Positions 1-29,862 of a stretch of DNA of 64,000 bases are shown here, piece after piece. Made by a program: the position numbers and the translations under genes. Each line of letters starts with the position of its first letter. Positions within the stretch are counted from its first letter, which is position 1. Where the stretch lies: NCBI GenBank assembly GCA_964019415.1, contig OZ025870.1, forward strand, positions 9,780,270 to 9,844,269, given 5' to 3'. This DNA is from Ianthella basta. Lineage: Eukaryota > Porifera > Demospongiae > Verongiida > Ianthellidae. The notes beneath the pieces are model-generated. The model ran no database searches. It was not told the DNA's origin and saw only the letters and a program-made list of their open reading frames with translations.

Positions 1-385
1 AATGTGAACAGCGTCATGTATGCAGGCACTGTATGCAGACACGTTGATATTGTTGTCATTTATTTCCTTTGGAAGATTTCGGCAGCCAGTCAGGCAAGCA
101 GTAAGAATTGGAGCAAAAATACTCCAGATCTGGAAAAACAATGACTTATGCACTCCTCAAGTCACACTTCGTCCTCGTTTACTAAAATAGCAATTTAGCT
201 CTGTGTATCTGTTCCCTGATTAGCCATTTTGCTATGAATATCATTATTGCTTGAGGTTTCACAACCACCAAAGTAAATTCCGCTAAATGCCATCATTTCA
301 GCAATCCACCAAAATAGACTTCCACAAAAACTTACTGGCCGTACATTACTGTATTGTGCGTCCACAATATATGTTGACCTAAGAT
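1..385. other. Non-coding stretch before the RNA array
   Basis: I see no exon, hairpin unit or repeat boundary here. The stretch around 270-330 (ccaccaaaat...) reappears at 3870-3910 just before another array unit, so it is spacer of the same repeat array. Confidence 0.5.
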
Positions 386-557
386 GTGATAATGCAACCA
401 CAACTGTTGTCCTGGTGGTGGATTTATGTGTTACAGTACCTAGCTATGGTATTGGATTGCCTTTACAATAGAAGACTTGAGAATGAATCTTTGTAAGGAC
501 GTGTGCAGTGAGGTCAGGTGCTGTGGAGGTGCACTTGTCCTCTTGCTGCGCATGTCA
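386..557 (+). ncRNA. Array unit 1 (alpha type)
   Basis: The conserved block is at 386-414, with one change (GATAAT for GATACT). The hairpin at 497-557 has arms beginning GGACGTGTGCAG and ending CTGCGCATGTC, which pair over 11 bp, then GAGG/CCTC, one mismatch, and CAGGTGC/GCACTTG around a purine-rich loop. The U-rich site is weak (CTTTGTAAGG). CTGTAATGGCT follows at 567-577. Near-identical hairpins occur in units 3 and 6. Confidence 0.55.
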
Positions 558-1079
558 CATGAGAAACTGTAATGGCTTGGGGTTTCATCATCATAGCTGG
601 ACTTCACTTTCCGTGGAGTCCACCTTCACGAGTCTGAGGACTAAATTACGTCCAGTTTACTAGTTCTGTTGACTCTGCTCTCAATCACATGAATAAAGTA
701 TTGGGACCAATGTGATGGATGGCGGTAGATGGTAGATGCACACTTCCTTCTATCATAGATTGATGCCATCTAGCACTCATGGATATGTGATTGTGTTCAT
801 GTGATCCAGTAGTGCAGAGGGCACTGGGTAATAATCAGGTCTGGAAACCCTCGAGCCATTGTCCCAGCTCTTAGCTCTTCTCTGGCCAGTTTTGTGTTTG
901 CTGCTGAAACGTGAACTCTTGCAGCAATAGCCAAAATGTGCAGTGGAATGATGGTCAAGTCCCCTGGGAGTAATATGTGCAGGGCTCATAAATTCATATG
1001 TTGATGTAGATCTATTTATATAATTATAGTGCATTTCATCAGTTGTGATTGACTGTATATAAACTTGTTTATCTGTACT

Positions 1080-1247
1080 GTGATACTGCAACCACAACTA
1101 TTGTACTGTCAATACACATAATATGCTGTTACTGCACACACGGTATCACCAAATTCATCAGATGTAAATCTTTCACCTTTGGAAGGGCATGTGTGTTGCT
1201 AAGTCAGTGCTGAGGAGTTGCACTTGACTTCCTTCTGTGCATGTCCT
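1080..1247 (+). ncRNA. Array unit 2 (beta type)
   Basis: The block is at 1080-1108 and the hairpin at 1185-1246. The upper stem has AAGTCA (1201-1206) against TGACTT (1225-1230), where alpha units have GGTCA with a C-rich partner: both sides changed and pairing is kept. A TATATAAAC box lies about 30 bases before the block and recurs in unit 7. Confidence 0.6.
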
Positions 1248-2321
1248 AAAATGTTGCATAAGGACTTAAAGACGTTTTGTATGGTTATCTGCACCAGGTG
1301 TTGGACTCAAGAACATGATATCAGAGACCTTTTTGAATCGCTTGTCCACACTGTGCACCGGTATCCGGGAAACGCTCGCACGATATTATACGGATTCATA
1401 CACATCCTTACAGTATAATTGCAAAATCTAGTGTTGACATAGATTACGAGCTAGAGATTTTATACAGCAATACTGCTTATGTTTATGTATATAATACCAT
1501 GATTTCATCCGGTACCCGGTGCCCGGTGTGGACAACCAACCCAAAAACGTCTATATAAACATATATTGCTGTCTATGTCTGTACTCGATTTTATAATGTA
1601 TTGTAAGTGTGTGAATCCATATGAAATCATGCAAGTGTGGACAACCAACACAAAGGTGTGTGCGCCTCCTGCGTATGTCTTACTGTTCACATTGTGTTGA
1701 ATTTGGTTTAATGCCGTTCCATCTGAGTTCTTGCCACTTTTACGGTCGCCGCCATATCTAAGAGATAGATGTTTTGTTGTCCAGAAACTCCTCCTTCAAT
1801 TTTCCACCAACCTTCACCAAACTTGGAAAGGTATATCATGGTGATATCAGGAGGGGGGAGGGGGGGTTGACCTAAAGTGGTTAGTGCCTACGCCACTGGA
1901 CCCCATTAGGCGAAATGGATTAACATAAGTAAATTCTGTATGCGTGGAGTTTTACGGAGCTAGTCTACGAAATGTTCCCAATTAAATGGACGGTTTTGAT
2001 TGGTTTGACACTCTTATTACGAAGCAGACTGGGAACCACCCGAAGGGCGGGCATTCAGCTAGTATGTGTGATGTAGAAATTTTCACAGATTGAAAGTCAT
2101 GTGGAAATTTGCACTTACACAGTACAATAGTTATATGGATTGATCACCTTTTTTTATATAACAATGTATAATTGAGCAAGCATTCAACCCAGTCAGGTCC
2201 TGGTCTCCTAATCACGGGCCTAAATGTCCAATGTCAGCATAAAATGATAATTGGTACTCATTGCACAAACTATCGCTTTAAGTATTTCATTGAGCATGCA
2301 TTGTTTTTGATTATCATAGAT

Positions 2322-2496
2322 GTGATACTGCAACCACAACTGTTGTCCTGTTAGTACATTTATGCCTATATTGTAGCAGCTTGACTGTGGTCACGACTTC
2401 TGGAGATTTGAGACGTACGTAGACTAATTTTGTAAGGACGTGTGCAGTGAGGTCAGGTGCTGTGGAGGTGCACTTGTCCTCTTGCTGCACATGTCA
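2322..2496 (+). ncRNA. Array unit 3 (gamma front, alpha hairpin chimera)
   Basis: The block at 2322-2350 and the next 60 bases (TTAGTACATTTATGCC...) match the gamma units at 3663 and 5389. The hairpin at 2436-2496 (TGTGGAG loop) is of the alpha type of units 1 and 6. The simplest explanation is an unequal crossover that joined a gamma front to an alpha back. Confidence 0.6.
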
Positions 2497-2886
2497 CATA
2501 AGAAACTGTAATGACTTGGGGTTTCATCATCATAACTGGACTCGACTTTCCGTAGAGTCCACTTTCACGAATCTGAGGACAAAATTACGTCAAGTTCCTA
2601 GTCCTGTTGCACTCTGCTCTCAATCACATGAATGAAGCATTGGGACAGATGTGATGGATGGCGGTAGATGGTAGATGCACACTTCCTTCATCATAGATTG
2701 ACGCCATCTAGCACTCATGAGTATGTGACTGTGTTGACGTGATCCGGTACAGAACACACTGGGTAATTAGGTCTGGAAACCCTGCCCCCCCAGATTTGTG
2801 TTTGCTGATGAAATGTGAACTGTTGCTGCAATAGCCAAAATGTGGTGTGCAATGTGTATATAAACTGTATTAATTTTATCTATACT

Positions 2887-3052
2887 GTGATACTGCAACC
2901 ACAACTATTGTACTGTTAGTACACATAATGTGCTGTTTCTGCTGATTGGGTAACGCCAAATTCATCGGTACGTAAATCTTTCCATTTTGGAAGGACGTGT
3001 GTTGTGAGGTCAGTGCTGAAGAGTTGCACTTGACTTCTTTCTGTGCATGTCC
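2887..3052 (+). ncRNA. Array unit 4 (beta type)
   Basis: Block at 2887-2915; ATTTTGGAAGG at 2984-2994; hairpin 2993-3052 with GGACGTG (2993-2999) pairing CATGTCC (3046-3052), GTCAGTGC pairing GCACTTGAC, and loop TGAAGAGTT. A short palindrome CACATAATGTG lies in the variable part. The TATATAAAC upstream box is shared with units 2 and 7. Confidence 0.65.
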
Positions 3053-3662
3053 GAAATTGTTGCATAATAGCTTACAGACATTTGCTGTTCCAAGTACCCG
3101 CTGGAGTCACATGATATTATACATAAACATATGGTGTGCTTTTATATAAATCAATGGACTGATGTCTATGTCTTTACTTGATTTTGAAGTATATTGAAAG
3201 TGTGTGTACCAATTCATATGAAATCAAGCAAGTGTGGACAACCAACACAAAAGGTGTGTGTCTCCTACGTATGTCTTACTGTTCACATTGTGTTGAATGG
3301 CCAATATTTCGTGAATGGCCATTTGGAACCGTTTGTAGGTTAATTGCCCACTTTCTTATATTGTGTACATGCAATGTATTTGTATGCAAGATACATACAT
3401 ACGTAGTGTAGAAATTTTCTCAAAGTAAAGTCATGTGGAGATTTGAGCTTACACAGTACAATAATTATGTAGATTGATCACCATTTGATATAGCAGTGTA
3501 TCATATAGTAACAAGCATTCAACCAGTTGAGTCCTTCGTCCCACATCACTGGCTTAAATGTTCAATGTCAGCATGATTTGTTAATCGGTGCATTGAGCAC
3601 AATGCACTGATTGTCATTGCAAAAAGTTCATTGTGCATGCATTGTTTGTGTTTATCATAGAT

Positions 3663-3830
3663 GTGATACTGCAACCACAACTATTGTCCTGCTAGTACTT
3701 TTATGCCTCAATGTATGGTAGTAGGTTGGTTGTCAGTTCTAGACTTGTCTTGTCTTGTCTGATTTTGGAAGGATATGTGCAGTGAAGTCAGGCAATGAAG
3801 GTTTGCACTTGACTTCTTCTGTGCATGTCC
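3663..3830 (+). ncRNA. Array unit 5 (gamma type)
   Basis: Block at 3663-3691; GATTTTGGAA at 3761-3770; hairpin 3771-3830 with loop region GGCAATGAAGGTTTGC, which differs from alpha and beta. It lies only 296 bases before unit 6, the tightest spacing in the array, and marks a repeat junction. Confidence 0.6.
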
Positions 3831-3958
3831 TATGAAGAAATCTGAAGTGAATTCTGCCAAATGCAATATTTTCAGCAATCCACCAAAATGAATTCCCACC
3901 AGAATTTCAGGCCTTAAATAGATGCATTGTGTGTCCACAGCTTATAAAGACCAAAGAT

Positions 3959-4131
3959 GTGATACTGCAACCACAACTGTTGTCCTGATAGTAGATTTAT
4001 GTTTTACTGTAGCTTTCTTATGGTGCTGGTGTTCCTTTGATAGAAGATTTTCGACTTACATTCTTTGGAAGGACGTGTGCAGTGAGGTCAGGTGCTGTGG
4101 AGGTGCACTTGTCCTCTTGCTGCACATGTCA
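3959..4131 (+). ncRNA. Array unit 6 (alpha type)
   Basis: Block at 3959-3987; TTCTTTGGAA at 4061-4070; hairpin 4071-4131 with arms GGACGTGTGCAG and CTGCACATGTC. Relative to unit 1 the 3' arm has A for G, turning a U-G pair into a U-A pair, so pairing is kept. TTGTAATGACT follows the hairpin. Confidence 0.6.
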
Positions 4132-4660
4132 CATGAGAAACTTGTAATGACTCAGGCTTTCATCAGCATAACTGGACTGTGACTTTGTGTTGACTCCATC
4201 TTCACGAGTCTGTGGACTAAATCATGTCCAATTTACTACGTCCAGTTTGCTCTGCTCTCAATCGCATGAATAAAGTATAGGGACCAATGTGATGGATGGT
4301 GGTAGATGGTAGATACACACTTCCTTCTATCATAGATGGATGCCATCTAGCACTCATGAGTATGTGATTCTCCAAGTACTGTGATAACGTGATACAGTGC
4401 AGAACGCATTGGGTAATCGGGTCAGGAATCTGTCAAATAATTGTCCCAGCTCTTAGCTCTTCTCTGGCCAGTTTTGTGTTTGCTGCTGAAATGTGAACTG
4501 TTGCTGCAAAAGCCAAAATGTGCAGTGGAATGATGGTCAAGCCCCTTGGATATATTACCTGCAGTGTTTAAAAATGCGTATGTTGAGGAATTCCATTTAT
4601 ACATAGTGCATTTCATCTGTTGTGATTGACTGTACATATATAAACTGTACTTATCTGAGC

Positions 4661-4822
4661 GATGATACTGCAACCACAACTGTTGTACTGTTAGTACACA
4701 TATGCTGTTCATGCTAAGTGTGTAGTAGCTATTCACTAGCACATTCTTTCCCTTTTTGAAGGGCATGTGTGTAGTGAGGTCAGTGCTGAAGAGTTGCACT
4801 TGACTTCTTTCTGTGCATGTCC
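4661..4822 (+). ncRNA. Array unit 7 (beta type)
   Basis: Block at 4661-4690; CTTTTTGAAG at 4752-4761; hairpin 4761-4822 with loop TGAAGAGTT. The 3' arm matches unit 4, while the 5' arm starts GGGCATG as in unit 2. Block and hairpin starts are about 98 bases apart. Confidence 0.6.
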
Positions 4823-5388
4823 TACAATGTTGTGGAACATAGTACAGACATGTTCTGGTAGGTTACCTACACCGGGTATCCCCCATGATATTATACATAA
4901 ACATAGTTTGTATATGTATATAAATCAATAGAGTGATATCTATAGTGGTCTACACTTGATTTTATAATATTGTAAGTATGTGTATGAATCTATATGAAAT
5001 CAAGCAAGTGTGGACAACTGACACAAAAGGTGTGTGTGCCTTATTCTCAGTCTTACTGTTCACATTGTGTTGAATGACCAATATTTTGTGAATGGCCGTT
5101 TGGAACCATAGTCCATAGATTTGTTGCCCACATTCTTATATTGCATGCTTGCAATGTATTTGTATGCAAGATACTCTACATGCAATGTAGATATTTTTTC
5201 AAAGTGAACCCTGTGGAAAGTTGAGGTTTACACAGTACAATATGTAGATTGATCACCCTTTTAATATAGCATCCTCCTCATCACTAGCCTAAATGTTCAA
5301 TGTCAGCGTAATTTGATAATCAGTGCCCAATGCACCGATTGTCATTTTAATACTTCATTGTGCATGCATTGTTTGTGTTTATCATGAT

Positions 5389-5552
5389 GTGATACTGCAA
5401 CCAGTCCTGTTAGTACGTTTATGCCTATATTGTAGTAGGTTGACTGCGGTCAGGATTTGTGGACTCTTATGCATTGATTAATTTTGGAAGGGATCTGTGT
5501 AGTGAAGTCAGGCATTGAAGATTTGCACTTGACTTTTTTCTGTGCATGTCCT
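5389..5552 (+). ncRNA. Array unit 8 (gamma type, block partly deleted)
   Basis: The block at 5389-5409 has lost about 10 bases, including half of the AACCACAA core, so promoter or RNA function may be gone. AATTTTGGAAG (5480-5490) and the hairpin (5489-5552) remain, with gamma loop GGCATTGAAGATTTGC. The lower stem is weaker (GGGATCTG against CATGTCC). Confidence 0.5.
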
Positions 5553-5829
5553 ATGATGACCTCTTAAGGTCCTGAGCCTTCTTTATCTTCATTTCAAAAT
5601 TTGTAACGACTAACTTTGAAAAAGCTGCGGCAGCCCCTAAGGGGCAATAATTGCAGAGTGCAAAATGTTAGCCGTGAGCATAAACTGTGAAATAAAGTAT
5701 TCAGCCCTAGGGAAATCATGGTGGTCTAGAATGTTATGTCATAGAGGGCTCCCTGCCACATATGTTCTACATGTAAGGGACGAAAAGGTGAGGGCTAAGC
5801 ACAAAAAATATTAAAGAGAGAAATTTCTA

Positions 5830-5892
5830 GGAAGGAGATAAGTTTGGGAAGGTGCTGACAAGCTGCACTTGACCTCTTTCAGTGCATATTCT
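5830..5892 (+). ncRNA. Hairpin-only remnant between units 8 and 9
   Basis: AGGTGCTGACAAGCTGCACT and the following TGACCTCTTTCAGTGCAT match the hairpin top and 3' arm, but no conserved block precedes them and the 5' arm is degraded. It is a decayed copy. Confidence 0.4.
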
Positions 5893-6355
5893 ATATAGCA
5901 TGTCGTGTAATGGTTTAGGTCTACAGATGCCGTACTCCCTGTTACTTTTCAGTTGAGGTGCTTAGTCTCACAAGATGCTAAGCCCTAAGTTTAACCAAGC
6001 AATCACTCATGTAACCGTCTGGTTGTTGTTGTTTTGCAGTTGCCTCCCACTGCTCCATGTTTGTAGCTAATGCTGGCTGCTGTACTGTACGTACCTTCAC
6101 TTTATGGTATAGTAGAACTTGTGTATATATTCTTCTTCACTTTACTCGAAGCACTTTAATCTGTGGCCAGTCCACTGTCTGTCATGTCTGTTGTGCCCTT
6201 TCTTAAATCAGTTGGTTTATGTCCTTACCCAGTAATCATTCACTGTGTTACTTGCCTAGTGGTGCAATGTCAGCCTATTGCTTATTGTGTGGTTCATGAT
6301 TATCATTACCAAGATATGCAAACATCTGTGTTTATTTATTATTGTGCTGAGGAAT
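5893..6355. other. Array spacer
   Basis: I see no gene or repeat that I can name. The spacer does not resemble those of units 1-8. Confidence 0.4.
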
Positions 6356-6533
6356 GTGATACTGCAACCACAAGTATTGTACCTAGTTGGAGGTACATGT
6401 ATGCATAATTCAGTGGTGATCTGTACATTTTGTCTTTGACATTTTCTACTGGAAATGGTCTTTTTGGAAGGGGTATGGTTGCGCAGGTAAAGTGCTAAAA
6501 GAGTTGCACTTGGCCTCACTTAGTTGCATACCC
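6356..6533 (+). ncRNA. Array unit 9 (lower stem co-varied)
   Basis: Block at 6356-6383; CTTTTTGGAAG at 6460-6470; hairpin 6471-6533. The lower stem is GGGTATG (6471-6477) against CATACCC (6527-6533), a perfect 7-bp helix where other units have GGACATG/CATGTCC. Two base pairs changed on both sides together, which is direct evidence that pairing is maintained. Confidence 0.65.
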
Positions 6534-6534
6534 T

Positions 6535-7389
6535 GCACTGCAATGTAATGCCTCAGCCATAAACCTCACTACTTGCTCACTTTGAATCCATCTTGACCCT
6601 TAGTCTCACAGGCTAATCTACCCATGGTTTGTATGTTCTCCTGTTTATGGGCATTTGTCTGACAGATATCAGTGCTGTCCACTGCTCCATGTACGTACGT
6701 AACTACCACTGTGGGTGCTGTGGACGCTCAGTGAAGTAGAACTCCTGTTGTCTTCCTCTTTCGCTCAAGTCACTTTTCTAGCTTTGTGCAATGTCCGAGC
6801 TATCAATGTGGCATGTGTTGTGTTGGCAGATTGATTCAACTCCTGCTTAGCACTACAATAGGTGCCCCAGTTTTGATGCAGATTGCAATGTTGGTTAAAC
6901 TTGTCACTAACAGTGATCAAATAATCTAGGCTTATATTTAGAGCCCAGTGCTCTTGTGCTAGTTGTTTATACAGGATAAGTGCATGCCTATGAATACAAT
7001 ATATGATATACAGTACATAAGTGCCAGTGAATATGTTAAAGTATATTGGTCTTTTTAATGTGGTCTGCTATATGTATATACATCAATCTGCTGAAACTAT
7101 ATATATGAGGAAGAAGTAAACATTGAGAAGTAAGAAAACGAAGCATCACCAATACCTCTACCTTCTAAGGTTAGTCCTCCATTTTATGTATATTAGTTCC
7201 CCTTTGTAATAAGTAGATTCATAGCTTAAAACTGTCGCCCTCGTTTACCCCAGTACAAGTGTAGTGTCAGTACTTTGTGGTATGTATGTTGGATATTTAC
7301 AGTGTTCCAGCCTGTCCTATGTAACTTCCTTCCATGTAAAGATAGTGTGTATGCATGCATGTTACATGTGTTGTATAGTGAGTGCAGAT
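6535..7389. other. Array spacer
   Basis: AT-rich sequence without a supported gene. Nothing recognisable was seen on either strand. Confidence 0.4.
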
Positions 7390-7564
7390 GTGATACTGAA
7401 ACCACAAGTATTGTATTGGCATGTTCATTGTCCCTCAGTTGCACATGAGTTGTCGCTACATACCACCCTCTGGTTAAGTTCATTAGCTATTAAATATTTT
7501 TGAGAGGACATGTGAAGTGTGGTCAGGTGTGAAGAGTGACACTTGACCTCTATTGTGCGTGCCT
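7390..7564 (+). ncRNA. Array unit 10 (upper stem co-varied)
   Basis: Block at 7390-7418 with one change (CTGAAACC); ATATTTTTGAGAGG before the hairpin; hairpin 7505-7564. GGTCAGGTGT (7521-7530) pairs ACACTTGACC (7539-7548), while most units have GTGC/GCAC here. The closing C-G pair has become U-A. Confidence 0.6.
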
Positions 7565-8968
7565 ACGTACTGTACATATAACAATGCTTTAATATATATA
7601 GAGGCTATGTAATGGTGTTGCAATACCGGAAGGTCAAAAGGTCGACAGTGAAAGGGTGCACTGTTGTCCATGTGTATACATAGGGAAATGGTTTTCACGG
7701 CGACTTACTTTGTCTTTGCTGCTGTGTCGCGCCGTTAAAGCAGGTTTGGAGGTGCTGAAATAGCAAGAGTCCAAGGCAGATGTAGCTGCGAAGATGTGAA
7801 TACACCTGGATGCTAAGACTTGGATGAGTGTACTCACACATCACAGCGTTGGCAAGCAGCCCACGAGCGTCAGTAAGGTTTCTGGTAGCACTCTGTGTAG
7901 GCCTTCGGGTCTGAGACCTTCACCTGTGACACCAACTGGCAAAGAGTTTTGGAGGCGCTATCGAGCGAATCGCAACATGTACCAACGCTATTCAAACGGT
8001 CACAGCAACAAGAGCTCTCTCTGCAGAAAGGGAATAGATGGTAGTGTCTTCTAGAAATCTCCAAACTCCTTGTTGATGATGATACATGCAAATTCAATTG
8101 CCACAAAACCGGTTTCCTCTCGTAAAGGGTATTGGCTCACTTGTTGCACTCAGATACAAATAGCTTGCACAGGAGAGCATGTTCACGCCGGGTAGACCTA
8201 CAGCTAGCAAGGGCATGCATACAACTACCCAAAGAAGCTGTTTAGAAGTCATATACATGCCCACACGTCCACAAAAGTACCTCCACACGCTAGACACTCA
8301 TGAACCCATGCAAGTCAATCGAACACTGGAAACATGTTCCTACGTAGGTTACCAGGGACATCTTAAGCCACTGTTCAGCACACACTTGAAAGGTGGCGAC
8401 TGGCAACATGCAACACTGTATGCCTCGGTTTTGGAGTGCATCAGCGCCTAACCCTAGTGAGTGCTTCGCTTTAACTTCCAGAAAGTTTAGCACCGTTCTT
8501 CCCTGGTTCTCTCGTTCATTCATCGACTAGAAGAACCTTCTATTACACAGAGATTTTAGCCTCCCCACGGTCTAAAGACTTAGAGAAATCTCCATCAAGG
8601 TTGTTGAAGTACTGTAGGTGTCCATTTTTCTATGTTTATGTATTGCGGTCCCATGCACTATTCACCGTCCAGAAAAAGTGGTAAAAGTGGGCATTGTGAC
8701 GCATATCCTCCACTCAGCACATTGTGTATAGCAGACTTCGTGTATGTTGGAGTGTACTAGTTTACAAGTGATGAAGTTACCTTGACCCTCCTTCATCTAA
8801 TCTGTCAGTCCCTATTCCTGAATCCATTGGCTTATGTCTCCCCAGCCCGAAGGCATGCTCTGTGTTGCTGGTTTAACAGTGCAGTGTCGGCTTGTCGCTG
8901 TATGCAATGGCTCACAATACAGTATACTGTATCTTTGCATACAGTTATCTGTGTTCATGCTGTGTCCA
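7565..8968. other. Long spacer with CpG-richer inserted sequence
   Basis: From about 7620 to 8530 the sequence is richer in CG than its surroundings and open in short frames on both strands. I recognise no domain in those frames. It may be an old insertion that lengthened the spacing between units 10 and 11. Confidence 0.3.
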
Positions 8969-9134
8969 GTAGATACTGCAACCACAAATGTTGTGCTGGT
9001 AGCAGGTTTGTATATAAGCATCTATACACATTCAATGGTTGTCCATATATATTTGGTATGTTGATATTTTTGAAGGGTGTGAGTTGGAAGGTCAGTGTGT
9101 GAGGTGCACTTGAACTCCCTTTGCTCACATGCCC
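8969..9134 (+). ncRNA. Array unit 11 (lower stem co-varied)
   Basis: Block at 8969-8998 (AGATACTGCAACCACAA); ATATTTTTGAAG before the hairpin; hairpin 9075-9134. TGTGAG (9078-9083) pairs CTCACA (9124-9129), whereas alpha units have GTGCAG/CTGCAC in this position. Confidence 0.6.
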
Positions 9135-9135
9135 C

Positions 9136-9793
9136 ACAATACGAATTTTGTTGAATGATTCTTGTGTCATTCATCTTACAGTAGGCCTGGGCGATAGTCC
9201 CAATACTATTCACTATCTTGATAGTAGGCTCACTATTCGAATACGACAGTGAGATATTGTACTATTCATCCACTAGGTTATCTATGTAAACAGTTTATAT
9301 AGCATTAACTAAGCTATACAAACTGTTGTAATAAGCAACGTGATTAGGCCTATGGACTCGGCTGCTCGAGGTGTGAGCTTTAGGATTCGACGTGTTAACA
9401 GGACGAAGGCTCCACCGCTGTTGTCTAGCTGCATGAATGGTTTCAAAGCCTGTGTTCAGGATCGGTCGGTGTGCTATGGCCACTGGAAGCTCATCTTCTA
9501 GATGCGAAGAGGATCAAAGTCACATCATAGGTACCCCTTGCTTGCACAACTAGCATGCAAATACCTCTCTATCTTTGGCCTCTCTTCTGACAAAGTAACT
9601 GTATTAATACCTGAATTGTTTAGGTCTTACTTATGGCTCCAAGTGTGATTACACTTCAGTTGCGAGTCGAAAGTCAAACAACTATAATGGCAGTTTATAT
9701 TCCTTTACTATTCATTCTGCATTGTTCATGTATAATTTATACTTGCACTGTATTCAGTGTGTATCACTGACGTACAGTGCCTTATCTTAGGAT
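9136..9793. other. Array spacer
   Basis: Contains short ACTATT/AATAGT repeats around 9190-9270. No gene is supported. Confidence 0.35.
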
Positions 9794-10043
9794 GTGATAC
9801 TACAACCACAAGTATTGCACTGCACTGTTCCTGCATAATGTATTCAGTGTGTACTGCTACTATCTCCTATGTTAGCGTAGGACATGGTACCACGAGTGCA
9901 TTGGCGAGAGCTATATACCAATTCACTTGTTTACCTTTGCTCTGTTTTGTGACTCGTACACTGCATTTGCTGTCTTTGGAAGGACATGTCTTGTGAGGTC
10001 AGGAGCTGAAGATCTGCATTTGAACTCTTTCTATGCATGTCCT
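9794..10043 (+). ncRNA. Array unit 12 (long middle)
   Basis: Block at 9794-9822 (CTACAACCACAAG); hairpin 9981-10043 with GGACATG/CATGTCC base but a poorer upper stem. The block-to-hairpin distance is about 187 bases, some 80 more than elsewhere, suggesting an insertion at about 9825-9950. CTGTAAAGGCTC follows the hairpin. Confidence 0.5.
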
Positions 10044-10834
10044 ACATATAGTGATCTGTAAAGGCTCTACTTCATTACTGATCAATGATCGGTCCAGCTT
10101 GGTGCGCATATCAATCTGCACTGTAGTTTAGGTTGGTTGATAGTGCTGTCAATTTTCTCCCCTGGAAGAGTTTAAGAAGGGGTTTCTGGACCATTAGTCC
10201 TGTGAGGAGTGGCTAGTGGATGGTTGGGTGTGGGAGAGGGTGTCATCTTTCTGTGCAAAGTGAAGTGGCTGAACGCAGGGAGAATCTCTTTGACTTGGTG
10301 TTTTAACAGGTACTGTACAGTACAATTGTTACTGTACGTACTGCCCACACCACGTGACTAGTGGTACCTTTCAAGGTACAATGCCATATATTAATAGCCC
10401 CTGGGATGATTAAGGGAGCAAGTAGGGTTCTGTATCCTTCAAAGACAGCATGGAGAGAATGCTGAGTATATTAGTACCATATGCACAGTACATTTGAAAT
10501 CCATCGATTATCTAAGAAAAGATGGAAAGCCACAGACAGCTGTTTTGCCCTTTTGGGGGCGCATCACTGTGGCATACTGATGGAAATGGTTGTGAATGAC
10601 ACTTGTTGTTGCATGCAAAAGCAGATAACGAGGCTACACTCCTCTTGACTGAGAGACTAGGGCCGAGGTCTTCAACCAGTCCCTCTGTGGCCTCTTTGTT
10701 CTGTATTACTGGAGCTGTGCATGCATGTCAGCATGCGATTGTATTGTGATATCCTACACACCCCTGTACTTTATTCTACTGTATTATTTGTACTGTTTAT
10801 TTACTCAACAGTATTACTGTATGTATATCTGGCT
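10044..10834. other. Array spacer, duplicated downstream
   Basis: The part from about 10500 (GATGGAAAGCC...) to 10800 is similar to 11650-11960, so this spacer and the following unit were duplicated together. No coding region seen. Confidence 0.45.
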
Positions 10835-11013
10835 GTGATACTGCAACCACAAGTATTACACTGCTAAGAGTTGTATACCCTGCCACACATAAATTAGCCT
10901 GTGTATCAGGACAGACTCCCCCACAGACAAGACGTTGTTGTTTTTGGAGGGACATGTGTGTATAGTGATCAGGTGCTGAAGAAATGCACTTGATCTTATT
11001 CTGCACATGTCCT
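10835..11013 (+). ncRNA. Array unit 13 (upper stem co-varied)
   Basis: Block at 10835-10863; GTTTTTGGAGGG before the hairpin; hairpin 10949-11013. GATCAGGTGC (10967-10976) pairs GCACTTGATC (10986-10995) over 10 bp with one wobble. The usual GGTCA/TGACC has become GATCA/TGATC, a two-sided change. Confidence 0.65.
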
Positions 11014-12004
11014 GTATTGAACTGTAATTCATGGAAGTTAGATGACCGTGAGTCATATCTTATCCCAGATGAGCTCTTTCACGGTACATTGGAATTGCAA
11101 TGGGCGCAAGTCCAAAGACCTCCAGTTTGTGAGCGTTTGCCTCGCGTGCTGCCCCATGTTGTGGCTGCCATTGGGTGCTGTGTCTTCACTCCAAGGAGCA
11201 GAGAGCTCAGTACTACAGCGAGTGGAGTATGGAGTGCCCACTTTTGCATTGTTTTGCTTGTACAGTTCGTCCTTGCTCTGTTTTGGGAGTGTACCCAAGC
11301 GAAGTCGTAGCAAGTCCAACCATATCATTCGAGCAAGCTGACACTATGTCTCTGAGTTTAGGCTGACAACATACAATGACGAATCTGTACAGGATCTTGT
11401 CCGGGACACAAGTTAGCGTACGCAGTAGTACCAGCCCCTTCCACAAGGGTCGGGTCTAGCGCACAAGCCTAGCCGTCGCCCTAGAGCTCCACGTGGACCA
11501 TAATTAGTACAGCAAATTTACATAATCTTGTGATAGTTCCCAGCTCAGCAATGCATTGCTCTGCAGTGTGCTCTGCAATGCAGTCTATGTGTTGTAGGCA
11601 GTCAGTGCGTCAGTGCCATCTGTGCTACATACATTGGAAGCCCTTCAGTCATTAACGTATGAAAGATGGAAAGCTGCAGACAGCTGTTTTGCCCTTATCT
11701 GGGCTCATGATGCAGTGTCGCATACTGATGGAATGGTTGATTGGCAGACTGTTTAAGTGCCACAGGTTACAAGCGAAAGCAGATAAATAGGCTAAAGGCT
11801 TCATGACTGAGGAACTAGGACTGGCGTCCTCAACCTAGTTCCTCACTGACCCCTTTAGTCTGTAGTACTGGAGCTATGCATGCAGTGTCAGCGTTCAGAC
11901 TGTAGAGTGTGGTATCTTATGAACAAACCCTGTGCTATTCCACTATACTATTTGTGGTATTATATTCATTCAGTATGGTATCTTACAATATGTTTGTTTG
12001 GGAT
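11014..12004. other. Array spacer, CpG-richer part
   Basis: The segment 11040-11470 is relatively CG-rich, with open frames of about 90-100 codons on both strands, none resembling a domain I know. From 11650 it repeats the 10500-10800 spacer. Confidence 0.35.
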
Positions 12005-12100
12005 ATGATACTGAAACCACAAGTATTGCGCTGGTAAGAGTTGTGGCCCGTTTCACACTTGACTACATTGGGTTGCAGTGGTCCCAAGTCCCCATATGCC
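12005..12100 (+). pseudogene. Array unit 14, hairpin lost
   Basis: The block is well kept (ATGATACTGAAACCACAAG, ending GCGCTG at 12033), but the expected U-rich site and hairpin are absent. Only a fragment similar to the 3' arm (CACACTTGACTACATT) appears near 12053. It is probably a dead copy made by the 10.5-11 kb duplication. Confidence 0.45.
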
Positions 12101-12419
12101 TAAACTCTTAATGTAATCTACGTATTATACTCAACAGTAATAGTGACTTCTTTGTGTAAGTGTCTGAGGAGAGAATACTGAACAGTCCACCCCATGGCGT
12201 TAAGGGTAGAGTGCCAACTGTGACGTAGCCTTAGACTGACTAAGGGCTTACTTTGACCATGATCCCTATGTAAAGCTCCCCACGGGCTATCTAGTAATTG
12301 ATACAGCAGATTAACATACATAAACTTGCAACAATTTCATGTCCTAAAGCAGTTGTTACCTAGGATACATACAGAGTGACAGGAGATAGTTGTGTATGCT
12401 ACTGATACCTATCATAGGC

Positions 12420-12545
12420 TAGTCTCTCATAGTCGACTGCTGTTCCTGCCTCCATTTTATATGCTGATGTCATCAGTCTTTCTCCCCAACTAATGACGTC
12501 ATAATTTAAAATGGAGGGAAGAAAATGGTCGGCTACACGAGACTA
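12420..12545. mobile_element. Small fold-back MITE with TAGTCTC ends
   Basis: The sequence starts TAGTCTC and ends GAGACTA. The halves are imperfect inverted repeats that include CCTCCATTTTA against TAAAATGGAGG and TGATGTCATCAG against CTAATGACGTCAT. The ends resemble those of the large inverted-repeat element at 36.5 kb, so this may be a non-autonomous relative. Confidence 0.5.
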
Positions 12546-12682
12546 ATCCTTCGTCTGCCATTCCATAATGGAGGCTATAAGCAAAATGTATTATATCTGT
12601 TTTCAATCCATTGCATAGTTATGCTATTGTGTGCAATTTTATAAATTCAGTGTGCATCAGTAATGAATGAGATTAACATAAT

Positions 12683-12867
12683 ATGATACTGTAACCACAA
12701 GTATTGTGCTGATAGAAACTTTATATTAATCCTATCTCACATTATCCATACTATTAGTCACCCTCTGGCTACTAATATTCAGTTTTACGTATTGCAACTT
12801 TTTGGAAGGGTGTGTAGTGAGATCAGGTGCTGAAGAGTTGCACTTGGCCTCTTTCTATACATTACCC
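12683..12867 (+). ncRNA. Array unit 15
   Basis: Block at 12683-12711 (ATGATACTGTAACCACAAG); CTTTTTGGAAGGG at 12798-12810; hairpin 12808-12867. The base is GGGT against ACCC, then TGTAG against CTATACA, which differs from the GGACATG helix but still pairs. GTGTAATGTCCTG follows. Confidence 0.6.
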
Positions 12868-13568
12868 ATGTAAGTGTAATGTCCTGTACAGTGACTACAG
12901 TCTCAGCTATACAAATGACCATTGTCATGTTCACTTCGGCTCCTTTAAGGGAGTGGTCTTGCAGACTTCCCTGCACATTTCAATCTGCATGGACACTTTC
13001 TGTACATTGAATCACAGTGTCTTACATAGCCAAACCAAGCGCCATTGTTTGATAGAGGTCTAGGGGAACTCACGATACCAACCAAAGCTAATGCACCACA
13101 GTGTAAGGGAAGAAGGTAAACATCTGGCACTTAACGGTTTAGGAAAAGTGCTCCTGATTAACCCTAACAGCAATCGCTTGCTGGCACAATCGCTAAATGT
13201 TAGGCTGGCTTTCATCCCTTGTAGAGGCTGCATTAACTGTCATTGCTTCTGACTTCCCTGGACTTTTGTCAGCAAAAACTAATGGTGTCTACAAAATGGC
13301 GATGTGGATACCTGAGACTACAGTGCTTTAGTGACATTTGCGTGGTATATAAATTCCATAGGGCCCTAATTCTAATCTGCCTACATTTTATATAGGAGTC
13401 CAAACGGGAGCATACCAACTGTATAGAAAATGTTATTATAGCAAGTGTGTATCTAATAAGTATGTATGTATGTATGTATGTATATATCTTGTATACATTG
13501 TCCTTTGATATGTATAAATTCAGTCAGTGCATATTTGTCGGTATGCAGCATTATGTAAACCATAGCAT
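12868..13568. other. Array spacer
   Basis: No gene seen. A short (GTAT)n microsatellite lies at about 13460-13485. Confidence 0.4.
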
Positions 13569-13736
13569 GTGATAGTGCAACCACAAGTATTCTACTGTTG
13601 GTTTATTTGTACTAGCTCTCATGGCTGGGGGTAAGTTTACCAGCTAAGTGTTTTTTCAATACTGTATTTTGGAAGGACATGTGTAGGAGGTCAGGTACTG
13701 TTAGGAGTTGTATTTGACCTCATTCTGTGTATGTCC
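13569..13736 (+). ncRNA. Array unit 16
   Basis: Block at 13569-13597 (GTGATAGTGCAACCACAAG); GTATTTTGGAAGG before the hairpin; hairpin 13675-13736. GGTCAGGTAC (13689-13698) pairs GTATTTGACC (13710-13719), with A-U replacing the usual G-C near the loop. It is the last intact unit of the main array. Confidence 0.6.
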
Positions 13737-15257
13737 TATAAAGAGCTGTATAGTGGCATGGTTGGCTAAACAAACATGCATACAAATGTGGGGGTATTGA
13801 GCATGGAATGTCCATAACTAGGCAGATGTATTGCATTGTGGAGATGCATTGCATCGTGGGGGCGACCCTGAGCAAGCCGAATGAGTTGTAGTTGTAGTTC
13901 ATGAAACACAAGTCATGTGCGTGGGTGTTAAAGAGCTGGAGAGGCTGTAAGATGAGTGTTAACAAATTTGTAAAGTTAGAGAGGGGAGAGGACACTGGTG
14001 GAGCACACAAGGGCCATTAATTGTATGAGATTCAGGTGTTAGGAGTTCTTTGAGAGCAAGGCATGATGGATAACACAGTTACTCTAGGTACAATGGGGGG
14101 TGGGAGATACAGATGGGGGAAGGAGTGGGAAGGGCAATGGGGGTAGGGACAAAGTGGGAGCTACGGATGGATAGAAAGCCGACTCAGCAGGATGTTGCTA
14201 ACTTTGAGCCAAAGCTGTGTCTGCTCTGCAGTTTTTTCCTGACAGCGCACGGGCTAGTGTTCCCTGTCCTTAGCCAACCAAAGCTGTGTCTGCAGTTTCT
14301 GCCTTATGGCACACGCTGGTGTCACCTGTCCTTAGCTAGCCGAAGATGTGCCTGCTCGGCAGTTTGACCTTTTGCGCTGCTGGTGACTCAGTGACGTCAT
14401 TCATGGTAGCCAGGCATCTTCATTCTGAGACTCTAATGCAATACAGTGTGTGTTGTGTGCATGCAATGTCTGATAGTGCAACGGCAATGCTTGTATAATG
14501 AATGTGTACTGGTATAAACGTTATTTGGCTGCCATATGACACAGGGAAAATGAACGTTGCACAAGTAGGATAGTTACAGTGCAGTACAAACAAACAGACT
14601 GACAGACAAAGTAAGCACTGCCCAGTGCGTTGATTCGATTTACCACATTATACCAATTTACTATAGGGGCTCACTTTGCTCGTCCCAATTATAGTATGCA
14701 TTTGTGGCAGATTCTAGTAGCAAAATGTGGTATCAACTGATGTCAATTGTCTGAGCAGAGTGCAGGTTTTAATAATTTCTCATTTGTAGGACATTTTGAT
14801 CCAAACATCTTCATCTTGACATATTTCAGGAGAATCTGTAACATTATTCATAGCCACCTCTCAGTACACTCCTGATCCTGTAAACAGTTGACAGGACCTT
14901 TGTGTCCAGACATCATGCAATCACCGTGCAATTGAGTTTTCATTGGCAGTTGTGTTCTGGTCAGAAATTTGATGTCGGTTTATACATCAATGCAACTAGG
15001 AGCCTCTACAGTATCATGGGATGTGATTGGGCAATAATGTAGCAAAACAGTGTAAATTGGAGGGAAGTTTTAACCTCAAGGGTCTTTGTCAGTCAGAAAA
15101 CATAGATTGTTCAAATGTTTTGTACAGAATCACTTTTGCACCATGCGGGTGTGGAGGTACCACTAAATGGCCATCTCCCTATATGCTGGAGTAGCCCTAG
15201 CGCTTGCCCACTTCTAGGTGAAGTTCGTCAATGATGCCATGTCTTTCTCTCATTCAG
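13737..15257. other. Intergenic or intronic stretch with a last block remnant
   Basis: A degraded block (TGATAGTGCAACGGCAATGC) sits at 14471 with no hairpin after it. The rest shows no exon I can support. Because a TGFBRAP1-like exon with an open 5' phase starts at 15258, part of this stretch should be intron of that gene. Confidence 0.4.
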
Positions 15258-16690
15258 AACAAAGAAGTCTCAGTTTGAAACTCTTGTGGGACTACTGACA
15301 CGGCATGCCCCTGACATCAATATGGCCAAGGTGGGTGGGGCAGGGGTGTGGTCTCAAGTGGTAGGGTGGGCTCCAGCTGGGTGGGGCAGGGGTGTGGTCT
15401 CAAGTGATGGGGTGGGCTCCAGCTGGGTGGGGCAGGGGTGTGGTCTCAGGTGGTGGGGTGGGCTCCAGCTGGGTGGAGCAGGGGTGTGGTCTCAGGTGGT
15501 GGGGTGAGCTCCAGCTGGGTGGGGCAGGGGTGTGGTCTCAAGTGGTGGGGTGGGCTCCAGCTGGGTGGGGCAGGGGTGTGGTCTCAGGTGAGTGGGGTGG
15601 GCTCCAGCTGGGTGGGGCAGGGGTGTGGTCTCAAGTGGTGGGGTGGGCTCCAGCTGGGTGGGGCAGGGGTGTGGTCTCAAGTGGTGGGGTGGGCTCCAGC
15701 TGGGTGGGGCAGGGGTGTGGTCTCAAGTGGTGGGGTGGGCTCCAGCTGGGTGGGGCAGGGGTGGGTTCCAGCTGGGTGGGGCAGGGGTGTGGTCTCAGGT
15801 GGTGGGGTGGGCTCCAGCTGGGTGGGGCAGGGGTGTGGTCTCAAGTGGTGGGGTGGGCTCCAGCTGGGTGGGGCAGGGGTGGGCTCCAGCTGGGTGGGGC
15901 AGGGGTGTGGTCTCAGGTGAGTGGGGTGGGCTCCAGCTGGGTGGGGCAGGGGTGTGGTCTCAGGTAAGTGGGGTAAAACATTCAATCTAGAATGGTAATG
16001 TTCCTTTGAAGTGACGTATGGTGATTCACAGACTAGGTAATTGTATAAATGCTGACTGATGTGTGATGTACAGAGACTACTAGACTCTCTGTGATAGTAA
16101 ACATCACCGTTTTGATGTCATGCCTTTGATACTAATACATACATGTATACAGCTTCTGGTGATCTTGCTGCATTTGTTCACAGACAGTAGATATTCTACC
16201 TTCAACATGGCCCTTGGAAGTCATTGCAAAAGCGTTGCTAGGTAACATGCGAGACACCATGGCAACGGAGAGAAAAATGAAGATCAAGAAGGGATTGGCA
16301 AAATCAGAGAACTTGCAGGTTAGTAGTATGGAAGGAAGTGGGGTGACAAGCCCCCCCCCCCCCCCCCCACACACACACATGGGTTTCACTTTGTACCACA
16401 TCACTGCTGTAAGGGTAAAGTTGTAATTCGACTCGTTTTAATGCTTTGTGTTTGTCCTTTCATAGGTACACAGGAAGCTGATACAGGAACACAGCCGCTC
16501 AGTTATAATGTGGGAGTACAAGTGAGTGTTGTTAGTGTTGTGCATGGTTATAATTGTGTGATGGAGCACTGCTTTTATAACATTTGCTGTCTAAATGTGT
16601 GTTTCATTGTCTTGTGCTCATGCTGTATCTGTGTGCTGTATGTGCACTTAAACACCTGTATATCTGCATCTGCCACACACACGCACACCT

Positions 16691-16763
<73 letters not shown>

Positions 16764-16933
16764 ACACACACACACACAGCACCTGCCCGATTTGCGACCT
16801 CCCATTCGGTGAAGCCTCCTTTGTCCGCTACCCTAACGGAGTCACAACTCATCACAAGTGCAGCCGGGACAGATCTGTCTGTCCTCTCACAGGAAAGTGG
16901 TTCCAAGCGGACAAGGTCTTGCCTCCAAACTGA
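15258..16933 (+). CDS. TGFBRAP1: TGFBRAP1/Vps3-like protein, C-terminal four exons
   Basis: Four exons join in phase: 15258-15330, 16184-16318, 16466-16521 and 16780-16933 (stop TGA 16931-16933). Each has AG before it; the first three end in GTGGGT, GTTAGT and GTGAGT donors. The product reads ...FETLVGLLTRHAPDINMAK, LPSTWPLEVIAKALLGNMRD, GLAKSENLQ, then a Vps39_2-type zinc-binding tail CPICDLPFG...FVRYPNGVTTHHKC. The order TW, MRD, (G)LA(R/K)SENL, C-x2-C, RYPNG is that of TGFBRAP1 (Vps3), a CORVET tethering subunit acting on early endosomes. Vps39 has a similar tail but fits less well. The first exon begins in the middle of a codon, so 5' exons lie upstream and I did not find them. The tail carries an extra stretch after the usual end (SVCPLTGKWF...). 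Confidence 0.7.
15331..15975 (+). repeat. 46-bp G-rich minisatellite inside the TGFBRAP1-like intron
   Basis: About 14 copies of a 46-bp unit (GGGGTGTGGTCTCAAGTGG...CCAGCTGGGTGGGGCA) start directly at the splice donor of the 15258-15330 exon. Some copies are shortened. Some contain CAGGTGAGTGG, and the last ends in CAGGTAAGTGG, a near-perfect donor. The + strand carries dense G runs that could form quadruplexes. Long frames through the repeat arise because the unit has few stop codons. Confidence 0.9.
16683..16776. repeat. (AC)n microsatellite
   Basis: A long AC run that ends at the CACAG acceptor of the last TGFBRAP1-like exon. The repeat thus sits where the polypyrimidine tract would be expected. 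Confidence 0.95.
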
Positions 16934-18221
16934 ACACACTACTTTAACTTCCTTCACTCCCACTGTTACTTTCTGTGCTATATCCTTTTTGTTTTGCAAT
17001 TGAGTTGTAAAGAGTCCAAGTGACTTCTGATGTACATGAGTGTGATTTCTCACTTTGCAGTGTCTCCTGCATTAATTTTTCATTGCATGGAGAATTATAG
17101 TAGCCATGCGCATGCATTAAAATTTGTATGACCAATATAATATAATGCCCTAGCTAGTGCTACTATAGTGCGCGTGCACTTACGTAAGTCAATTGCAATT
17201 GACTGCAATATATGTATGGAGGCCCATATATACCAAGCCATTAATTTAATTCTGATGTAATATAAGTATAATTATATTAAATAATATTATATTTTTATAA
17301 TTTTATAACAAGCCATAATAATAATAGTGGACGTCTGTAAACTGCATATAGTACAATGTATATACAAACATACGTAGCTGCATGCATGCAAGAAAACAGG
17401 AATGCAGATTGAGTGAGTGTGCACGGAAAATGTGTATGGATCGATCATTAATTGCTTGTTTATACTTTTATGCGCTGGTCATCCTAATTATAATTAGTCC
17501 CTATTTGTACACTAGTGACACTTTTTAAGGAAGAATGTATCATATTTGGGAATGACAATTATTGTAAAATGCATCACATAATGCGTTGTGCATACTAGTG
17601 GATGGATTGAATCCTCGTACTCAGCATGCATGCCGGCTGTTTAGACTCCGGCTGGTAATTATAATATTAATGCCACGGCTAGCCATGCACCAGCAAGCTC
17701 ATGGACTGGACACTAAGTAGATATTGTGTTAAGGAGTAATGGAAGTGCAATAACAACATGTGTCATAAGCAAAATTTTAAATTTGATACTGCAGCGCATG
17801 TGGCTGTACCTTATGCAAGTAGCGTACGTATTGATAACTGGGTATCCCATATTGTAGTAAGGTGGCTGAGCACTTAGCTAGCACGGAATTTGGAGCTTTG
17901 GATGAGTTGATTCTGTTGGGCTTGGTGCAGGGAAGTGCAGGAGTGAGGGCTGTTATGTAAACAATGTGTAATATGAGCTGGCTGAGGTGCTAGGTGTGCG
18001 GTTAGAGGGCGCATAATTAGATTACCAACCGGAAGTGCGTCGCATTCTAGGGGCGGAACGGTATGCACACTGGACACTGCATGACGTAGAATAAAATGGC
18101 CGATCGGCCCGCGGAGGAAAGACAGTGCCACAATCTTCTGCAGCAGAGCAGCTTGGGGAGCGTCAACCTCAAAAGAACATAGAACAAGATGCCCTTAATT
18201 AGCATGGAGAATTTTGCGGCG
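16934..18221. other. AT-rich intergenic region
   Basis: This is the 3' flank of the TGFBRAP1-like gene. Beyond short palindromic AT stretches near 17270-17330 I see nothing to annotate. Confidence 0.5.
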
Positions 18222-18347
18222 GCCCCCTGAGCGGGACAGATTTTTACGGTGACAAACCTGAAACAAACAGAGAATCGGTGTATTACAGTAAGATAATTAT
18301 ATGGATTAGCTCCTTGTGGTTACTATATAATTTAATTATATAAATAT

Positions 18348-18518
18348 GTGATAGTGGAACCACAAGCATCATACTGGTAACTCAGTATTATGGAGCATAC
18401 TATTTATATGTAGCTAGTGTAATATTTCTAATGAATTTGTTTTTGGTGTTTTTTGGAAGGGCATAGGTGTAATCAGAGGTCAGTTGCTGTAAGCTGTCCT
18501 CTAACTACTAAATGCTCT
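18348..18518 (+). ncRNA. Structured-RNA unit 18 in block L1
   Basis: Block at 18348-18376 (GTGATAGTGGAACCACAAG); GTTTTTTGGAAGGG at 18448-18461; hairpin 18459-18517 with AGAGG/CCTCT and CAGTT/AAGCTG around a short loop. It is diverged from the array, yet block, spacing (about 111), U-rich site and hairpin are all kept. Just upstream, TTGTGGTT (18314-18321) makes an inverted pair with AACCACAA (18358-18365) around an AT-rich centre. Confidence 0.55.
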
Positions 18519-18570
18519 ATATGTAATAAATGTAATAAGATTATGGTGCAAGCTGCATGTGCTCAGACAG

Positions 18571-18695
18571 CTAGAGCAGATTTATGCAACTTTGCAACAG
18601 GTTCCAAATCCTTGGGCTGTCGTTACCTAGGTAACAACTACCCACAATTTGGGAACCTGTTGCAAGCTTAAGATTGCATAAATCTGCTGTAGATG
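18571..18695. mobile_element. Fold-back MITE, copy 1
   Basis: Nearly the whole element is an inverted repeat: GCAGATTTATGCAA...GCAACAGGTTCC on the left and GGAACCTGTTGC...TTGCATAAATCTGC on the right, around TTACCTAGGTAA. Related copies lie at 19371 and 29916, with an end fragment near 36765. Confidence 0.75.
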
Positions 18696-19535: not shown

Positions 19536-19568
19536 TGGACTGAATAATTTATGGTCAGGTGATAATAT

Positions 19569-29692: not shown

Positions 29693-29862
29693 GTGATACT
29701 GGAACCACAAGCATAATACTGGTAACTCAGTATTATGGATCATACTATTTATATGTAGATACAGTGATACGTCTAGTGAATTGTTTTTGGTGTTTTTTGG
29801 AAGGGCATACGTGTAATCAGAGGTCAGTTGCTGTAAGCTGTCCTCTAACTACTAAATGCTCT
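29693..29862 (+). ncRNA. Structured-RNA unit 19 in block L2
   Basis: Block at 29693-29721 (GTGATACTGGAACCACAAG); GTTTTTTGGAAGGG at 29792-29805; hairpin 29803-29861 matching unit 18 almost exactly, with AGAGGTCAGTT against AAGCTGTCCTCT. The upstream inverted TTGTGGTT of unit 18 is degraded here (TTATGGTT). Confidence 0.55.

Follow-up and report, generated by a model that had tools for sequence, protein, structure and literature searches.

Predicted Sm-class RNA genes with an snRNA-type promoter element form a tandem array in the sponge Ianthella basta

Introduction

The U1, U2, U4, U5 and U11 small nuclear RNAs (snRNAs) carry an Sm site and a 3' stem-loop, and the promoter element of snRNA genes, the proximal sequence element (PSE), is the binding site of SNAPc, the snRNA activator complex. 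A more compact arrangement is found in U7, which pairs with histone pre-mRNA and consists of a short leader, an Sm site of its own type (AAUUUNUCUAG) and one 3' hairpin. Herpesvirus saimiri encodes a few Sm-class RNAs of dissimilar sequence, the HSURs, which pair with microRNAs and mRNAs. To our knowledge, Sm-class RNAs outside the spliceosome are few, namely U7, spliced-leader RNAs, SmY and the viral HSURs. Here, we describe a same-strand tandem array of short units, each with a shared 29-base block, a U-rich site and a hairpin, in a 64,000-nucleotide stretch of the genome of the demosponge Ianthella basta (the window; C3:9780270-9844269 of a genome of 209 Mb in 96 contigs). Fifteen of the 17 copies noted in the array, and two outlying ones, are well supported as predicted genes for Sm-class RNAs of ~95-125 bases.

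The nematode SmY RNAs are reported to form a multi-gene Sm-class family outside the spliceosome, with 12 genes in C. elegans (PMC11229312), and HSUR2 is reported to pair with mRNAs without a fixed seed (PMC6763288).

Results

A Shared Block Matches the Promoter Element of Spliceosomal snRNA Genes

With up to three mismatches, the block GATACTGCAACCACAA has 20 matches in the whole window, compared to 1.06 expected. Seventeen same-strand (+) matches lie between positions 388 and 14487, and two further ones, at 18350 and 29695, sit in duplicated stretches (18220-19333 and 29562-30683) that are 90% identical. Scoring with a position matrix derived from 16 window sites and seven U1/U5 promoters gave 17 places in the window with 32-47 bits, whereas no score on the opposite strand exceeded 13.8 bits; scanning the 10 kb upstream of the window with the promoter matrix returned no block above 11 bits.

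Genome-wide, the block was found at 124 places with at most one mismatch, compared to three for the reversed pattern. Genes for U1, U2, U4, U5 and U11 were located elsewhere in the genome, those for U1, U2 and U5 in clusters, and the element recurs in front of them at a nearly constant distance. In ten of 11 U1 genes, AACCACAA lies 56-57 bases before the RNA start (nine exact, and a one-base variant in L041), the eleventh copy (L049) having its PSE at 44 bases; in all eight U5 genes, the exact element is found 58 bases 5' of the start. The two U4 genes carry it at 57 and 58 bases (one exact, one mismatched), the single U11 gene has a PSE with one mismatch at 59 bases, and a diverged PSE (one to three mismatches) is present at 57 bases in all eight U2 genes read, of 19 matches. 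In snRNA genes, AACCACAA is mostly followed by N3-TTGT, and the U5 element CAACCACAACTGTTGT is letter-identical to that of several array units. Because the same element sits at a fixed distance from the RNA start in the snRNA genes of this genome, the 29-base block is, by sequence and spacing, their promoter element, the PSE.

A block that is promoter rather than RNA moves the predicted 5' end of the array transcripts. An earlier note on this DNA had expected transcripts to start near the block; judged by the PSE-to-start distance of the known snRNA genes, the array RNAs would instead start ~57 bases 3' of AACCACAA, near block start + 65. At the other end, ACAA occurs at or just past the end of the hairpin in eight of 40 units, compared to 0-4 in ten shifted windows, some automatically placed hairpin ends being off (for example, w1082). 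U1, U2 and most U5 copies have the same motif close to their 3' ends, which is at most suggestive of an snRNA-type 3'-end signal in the array-type units. More generally, the PSE consensus provides a tool for annotating snRNA-type genes in this genome.

The Units Combine a Canonical Sm Site with a Covarying Hairpin

A U-rich site and a hairpin follow the block in 15 of the 17 array copies (Table 1). All 17 same-strand copies and the two in the duplicated stretches, as originally counted, are confirmed as block matches, but the full layout is lacking at 12007 and 14472. Likewise, the fixed spacing that had been put at mostly 93-121 bases is largely borne out: the U-rich site lies 89-114 bases after the start of the block in all units but the one at 9796 (14 of 15), where the distance is ~179. 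Decayed or damaged copies are seen at 5828 (no block) and 12007, and at 5391, where the PSE is damaged.

Table 1. Units and partial copies of the array, in window coordinates. Features are numbered along the forward strand; positions marked ~ are approximate.
Feature	Span	Strand	PSE	Predicted RNA start	Sm site	Hairpin	Remarks
Unit 1	386..556	+	388-417	~454	490-494	498-556	
Unit 2	1080..1247	+	1082-1111	~1148	~1178-1182	1184-1247	
Unit 3	2322..2495	+	2324-2353	~2390	2428-2432	2437-2495	
Unit 4	2887..3052	+	2889-2918	~2955	~2985-2990	2993-3052	
Unit 5	3663..3831	+	3665-3694	~3731	~3763-3768	3770-3831	
Unit 6	3959..4130	+	3961-3990	~4027	~4064-4068	4072-4130	duplicate of unit 1
Unit 7	4662..4823	+	4664-4693	~4730	4753-4758	4760-4823	duplicate of unit 2
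Unit 8	5389..5552	+	from 5391		~5482-5487	5490-5552	8-base deletion in PSE, probably damaged
Hairpin relic without block	5828..5893	+					covariance model match, 28.6 bits
Unit 9	6356..6534	+	6358-6387		6461-6467	~6470-6534	weak hairpin (z about -0.2)
Unit 10	7390..7564	+	7392-7421		7497-7502	7505-7564	
Unit 11	8970..9134	+	8972-9001		9067-9072	9075-9134	
Unit 12 (9796)	9794..10043	+	9796-9825		~9974-9978	~9981-10043	~75 extra bases between PSE and Sm site
Unit 13	10835..11013	+	10837-10866		10941-10947	10949-11013	
Decayed unit	12007..12167	+	12007-12036		none	12144-12167	3'-arm piece only
Unit 14	12683..12867	+	12685-12714		12799-12805	12808-12867	
Unit 15	13569..13737	+	13571-13600		~13667-13672	13674-13737	
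Weak block match	14472..14487	+			none	none	3 mismatches; not counted as a unit
Outlying unit, duplicated block A	18348..18518	+	from 18350		~18449-18456	~18458-18518	
Outlying unit, duplicated block B	29693..29862	+	from 29695		~29793-29800	~29802-29862	

Sites and hairpins were compared in a table of 40 units that leaves out the copies at 9796, 12007 and 14472 and takes in the copy at 5391, with its damaged PSE, and a gene on contig C6 with a short hairpin (L119). The predicted Sm site reads TTTGG in 31 units, TTTGT in five and TTTGA in four, and an Sm site was also observed in this genome's U1. The hairpin begins 1-9 bases beyond the U run, and this combination of a predicted Sm site with an adjoining 3' stem-loop places the units in the Sm class as far as sequence can define it. 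In 38 of the 40 units, the hairpin is 54-73 bases long (median 61); a single hairpin with 17-28 pairs is predicted in all units except the C6 gene, and its folding z score is -2 or lower in 28. A recurrent detail is a 3' apical bulge: in 14 of 40 units, compared to 75 of 1148 shuffled hairpins, the stem runs for 3-6 pairs from the loop before its first defect, one unpaired base in the 3' arm. The corresponding 5' bulge occurs in one of 40 and 82 of 1148, respectively; these counts of bulges and shapes are descriptive, since paralogous units are not independent.

The hairpin also covaries. A covariance model built from ten array units recovered all 15 units in the window, together with the blockless copy at 5828-5893, at E <= 0.001, which bears out the shared hairpin noted before. 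Of the 24 pairs in the model, 12 show one-sided and eight two-sided variation, where shuffling predicts 3.1 double changes. The covariation score of 0.263 exceeds both the shuffled value (0.201, sd 0.011) and that of slid versions (<=0.113), with the reservation that the alignment follows a model derived from ten of the same units, a procedure that favours structure. For a second array, introduced below, nine of 16 hairpins, those that looked alignable, were aligned with MAFFT, and a structure was predicted from that alignment; it contains five double-changed pairs compared to 2.3 expected (7 of 500 shuffles reach as many) and scores 0.247 compared to 0.163.

Comparison with Known Sm-Class RNAs

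The window contains no Rfam match at gathering score, and at E <= 10 (bases 1-20000) only 11 weak matches were obtained, mostly to microRNA models. Together with the covarying hairpins, this sustains the reading of the array as a tandem family of small-RNA-like genes that are structured and previously undescribed. The accompanying statement in the earlier note, that no snRNA has this layout, does not stand: it is the layout of an snRNA gene, in which a PSE and a short 5' part precede an Sm site and a 3' stem-loop.

The array units resemble the spliceosomal snRNA genes of the same genome in their PSE and its distance from the predicted RNA start, in having an Sm site and a 3' stem-loop, and in being clustered, as the U1, U2 and U5 genes are. 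In contrast to spliceosomal snRNAs, they match no Rfam snRNA family, have only 18-55 bases before the Sm site, form a single long hairpin and have an unconserved leader. Identity with a known spliceosomal snRNA was rejected on the lack of an Rfam match and on the location of U1, U2, U4, U5 and U11 elsewhere, the genome search having covered these five, with U6, U12, U4atac and U6atac outside it. U7, as generally described, offers the same sequence of short leader, Sm site and one 3' hairpin. However, the array consists of many unlike genes with a canonical Sm site, and its hairpin is about twice as long as that of U7; U7 itself was rejected because RF00066 is not matched and the Sm site is not of the U7 type. 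The U7 model scored at most 22.7 bits anywhere in this genome, below its cut-off of 34.

The HSURs are similar in being a group of Sm-class RNAs with unlike sequences, but they are viral and have few genes, and the array matches no Rfam HSUR family. SmY shares the property of a multi-gene Sm-class family outside the spliceosome. In SmY, two stem-loops flank the Sm site and the first is conserved, whereas the 5' part of the array units is unconserved and nearly unstructured; an assignment to SmY was rejected for want of an Rfam match and of stem-loops on both sides of the Sm site.

The Layout Recurs at Other Loci of the Genome

A pattern of PSE, 62-92 bases and TTTTTG was found at 16 places (15 PSEs) genome-wide, and PSE, 62-92 bases and TTTGG at 27 places, with no match for either reversed pattern; among the 27, two on C2, six on C10 (4.0-4.3 Mb) and one on C20 were left unread, and the C2 and C10 groups resemble repeats. 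These searches revealed that the layout is common to several families. The second array, again with all units on one strand, lies at C3:4447035-4469710 and comprises at least 16 units, a lower bound given that C3:4459401-4463950 was left out, a third cluster at C3:10209762-10222022 comprises five, and single genes are found on C6, C11 and C16. Hairpin sequences at these loci are unlike those in the window, while the hairpin shape recurs. When window positions 2960-3060 were used as a query, eight places were found in 209 Mb, all of them in the array and on the + strand; the search recovers eight of the 15 array units, and distant copies could be missed. The sequence family of the window therefore looks local, but the layout itself extends beyond the window to the other loci. 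Dispersed copies, which the earlier note had named as an outcome that would make the family a SINE or MITE, were not seen with this query, which seven of the 15 units escaped. Exact hairpin patterns had no matches in collections of genome contigs and viral contigs.

Some further PSE-bearing loci differ from the array type. L119 (C6:2620525-2620633, - strand) is a PSE-Sm unit with a short hairpin, GGACATCC...GGATGTCC, and a predicted RNA of ~65 bases; its layout is near that of U7, but its Sm site is canonical, and L120 represents the same PSE. L121 (C10:4601805) was excluded for lack of a good hairpin. At C11:7404717 (L004), the PSE is followed by GGTATAAG and a structured-looking stretch without an Rfam match at gathering score, possibly a Pol III-type noncoding RNA gene.

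A dispersed repeat also carries the snRNA-type promoter. It accounts, as one family, for 59 of 80 comparable PSE-block sites in the genome (at most one mismatch), and the median reach of the pairwise matches, measured from the PSE, is 277 bases to the 5' side and 134 bases to the 3' side. In many copies, a TATA-like stretch lies ~33 bases after AACCACAA, a U6-like spacing. Membership of the weak block at 14472 in this repeat was considered but is not supported, as that block has no BLAST match to the 80 repeat-site stretches (E <= 1e-3).

Leaders Differ More Than the DNA around Them in Most Duplications

The predicted leaders, measured from RNA start to Sm site, are 18-55 bases long (median 32.5) and nearly unstructured (median minimum free energy -2.5 kcal/mol). 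No 5- to 8-mer is common to the 40 leaders beyond what shuffles give (p 0.11 to 0.41); GTCCATC, present in four leaders of the second array, was dismissed as a motif because some 7-mer reaches a count of four in 11% of shuffled runs. Pairwise leader identity in the array has a median of 0.514, compared to 0.513 for shuffled leaders. The earlier remark that sequence between the shared parts is largely unrelated in later copies applies to the stretch just before the Sm site, and there to most early copies as well.

Segmental duplications within the array permit a comparison of leaders with their own surroundings. In a 1-kb duplication (271-1256 and 3845-4832), identity is 0.83 in the flanks, 0.92 in the PSE and 0.93 in Sm site plus hairpin, but 0.61 in the spacer between PSE and start and 0.56 in the leader, the last being lower than flank plus spacer with p 1.6e-5. 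Equal-length windows as low as the leader are rare in this alignment (1 of 811 for unit 1, 8 of 820 for unit 2). Across seven duplication alignments, the leader is significantly below the flanking DNA in five (p <= 0.0011), and when all seven are averaged, identity is 0.53-0.60 in the tract that opens 40 bases past the beginning of the PSE and closes at the Sm site, compared to 0.69-1.00 in all other 10-base bins.

Discussion

Based on these data, a simple model would suggest that the array units are snRNA-type, PSE-driven genes, which we consider very probable. Their most likely product, given what is established about PSE-driven genes and Sm sites, is a capped, Sm-bound ribonucleoprotein (RNP) with an RNA of ~100 bases. 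SNAPc bound to the PSE would direct transcription, presumably by RNA polymerase II, from ~57 bases downstream, giving an RNA of ~95-125 bases that begins with a variable leader, continues with a canonical Sm site and ends in a single long, imperfect hairpin. This RNA would acquire a cap and an Sm ring and form a stable small nuclear RNP (snRNP).

What such particles might do is suggested by the contrast between their parts. The Sm core and hairpin could serve as a constant scaffold that binds a family-specific protein, and the leader could be the working end, which base-pairs with targets that change in evolution, in parallel to the pairing of U7 and the HSURs with their targets. The combined proposal, in which snRNA-type genes encode snRNPs that act as antisense agents or adaptors and whose rapidly changing leaders are carried by a constant scaffold of Sm core and hairpin, is offered tentatively, with chances that we would place somewhat short of even. 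A still more far-reaching version, which seems rather unlikely, sees ~40 or more snRNA-type genes of an animal genome, grouped in three clusters on a single chromosome-scale contig or standing alone, as an endogenous multi-gene antisense system of the U7/HSUR type. Their scaffold would be fixed, their leaders would be under accelerated, possibly diversifying evolution, and their targets would be changing ones, for example transcripts of transposons or viruses or others that evolve quickly.

A number of observations weigh against the role proposed for the leaders, among them the two duplication alignments without a significant leader excess and the pairs cut with fixed flanks that are detailed below. 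The seven duplication alignments share units and are not independent, and among the five with significant excess, one has Sm site plus hairpin itself at 0.68, its hairpins being of different types. In the 1-kb duplication (20 columns per bin), one flank bin at -30 is as low as the leader (0.45), and the spacer before the start is low too. The variable tract begins ~17 bases before the predicted start, and because of this, part of it may be a DNA-level effect. One pair in the second array has a leader identity of 0.79, above its flanks (0.42-0.50). Recombination between units could also mix leaders, as seen in unit 3, a hybrid of a 5' side of the unit-5/8 type and a hairpin of the unit-1 type. 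A genome-wide search with two of the leaders yielded no second site with fewer than three mismatches for either, and the first leader had fewer matches (10, counting its own) than its reversed control (21). For the scaffold, further pair types are not raised in the second array (12 compared to 10.9), and one slid version of that alignment reaches a score of 0.193.

Several of the same data bear on an alternative in which the hairpin is the working part of an Sm-class RNA: the leader would simply drift, and the Sm ring and bulged hairpin would bind protein, as in SmY. Conservation is concentrated in the Sm site and hairpin (0.93 compared to 0.83 in the flanks of the 1-kb duplication), the 3' apical bulge recurs over unlike hairpin sequences (14 of 40), and drift fits both the two of seven alignments without significant leader excess (p 0.069 and 0.73) and most pairs cut with fixed flanks, of which only three of 15 give p < 0.05, many of those flanks not being homologous. 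Neutral drift, however, predicts that leader and flank identity are equal, and the leader is lower in five of the seven alignments; we regard this explanation as unlikely, though not strongly so. It is improbable that the snRNA-type promoters drive microRNA precursors, with the ~60-base hairpins as Dicer substrates. Herpesvirus saimiri reportedly makes microRNAs by means of Integrator from snRNA-type transcripts, hairpin length and the 17-28 pairs in 39 of 40 units resemble those of a pre-microRNA, and demosponges are reported to possess microRNAs (PMC4752309). Unlike a mature/star pair, however, the two arms in the window array are about equally conserved (0.76 and 0.78), with the loop at the centre of the best 22-base window; in addition, the arrays are unlike in hairpin sequence, a canonical Sm site is retained immediately 5' of the hairpin, and no Rfam family, microRNA or other, exceeds its cut-off in the window.

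The layout of a PSE-driven Sm-class RNA with a short 5' part would also suit spliced-leader RNAs with many different leader exons, and a study of the glass sponge Aphrocallistes vastus describes a trans-spliced leader of ~37 bases in many variants, for which its authors name sequencing error as the likely cause (PMC10282587). Four of 27 leaders tested lack GT, one of which gains it if the start is set two bases earlier, and no k-mer is common to the 40 leaders above shuffles. This candidate was dropped, in the absence of a common splice donor and a conserved leader exon, as very improbable. Decaying or selfish arrays, in which a PSE-bearing gene multiplies by unequal crossing-over and leaves few or no working copies, would account for the copies at 5828, 12007 and 5391 and for the 12 of 40 hairpins with z above -2, which also count against the proposed scaffold. 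Compensatory changes in the hairpins of both arrays, and PSEs and hairpins that are better conserved than the flanking DNA in most duplications, argue in the other direction and make decay quite improbable as the main explanation. Finally, the dispersed repeat with the same PSE (59 of the 80 block sites examined) would be the natural argument for a SINE or MITE family that carries a PSE. The array units are tandem and on one strand, and the matches of the query unit, distant copies of which could be missed, are confined to the array; this reading was dropped as extremely improbable.

The proposal of snRNA-type genes with a constant Sm-hairpin scaffold would add a new family of predicted Sm-class, PSE-driven RNAs, and the behaviour of the leaders would also be new if confirmed. 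Literature on sponge small and spliceosomal RNAs, spliced leaders, Sm-class arrays, SmY and HSURs named no such family in the titles and abstract beginnings of part of the matching open-licence papers. If the proposal is true, the snRNP format would be used as a many-gene, possibly programmable platform for RNA targeting.

Other Features of the Window

Downstream of the array, an open reading frame (ORF) at 19675-20070 encodes a Destabilase (i-type lysozyme; Pfam PF05497 in the first copy), and its surroundings occur three times in the window at ~84-85% identity, with related stretches at 30.87-31.87 kb and 46.65-47.64 kb. An uninterrupted ORF like the pol gene of long terminal repeat (LTR) retrotransposons, with reverse transcriptase (RT), RNase H and integrase, occupies 23863-27141 (- strand) and is flanked by 258-base direct repeats that are 99.6% identical (23566-23823 and 27162-27419). 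A second RT-like ORF, below the Pfam cut-off, lies at 50541-51905 (- strand), and its DNA is partly duplicated at 33.3-34.2 kb (33523-34005, - strand). Simple repeats include a G-rich minisatellite of 46 bases at 15332-15974 (13.8 copies) and an 88-base tandem repeat of seven copies with a second, inverted array (47750-48363 and 49188-49374).

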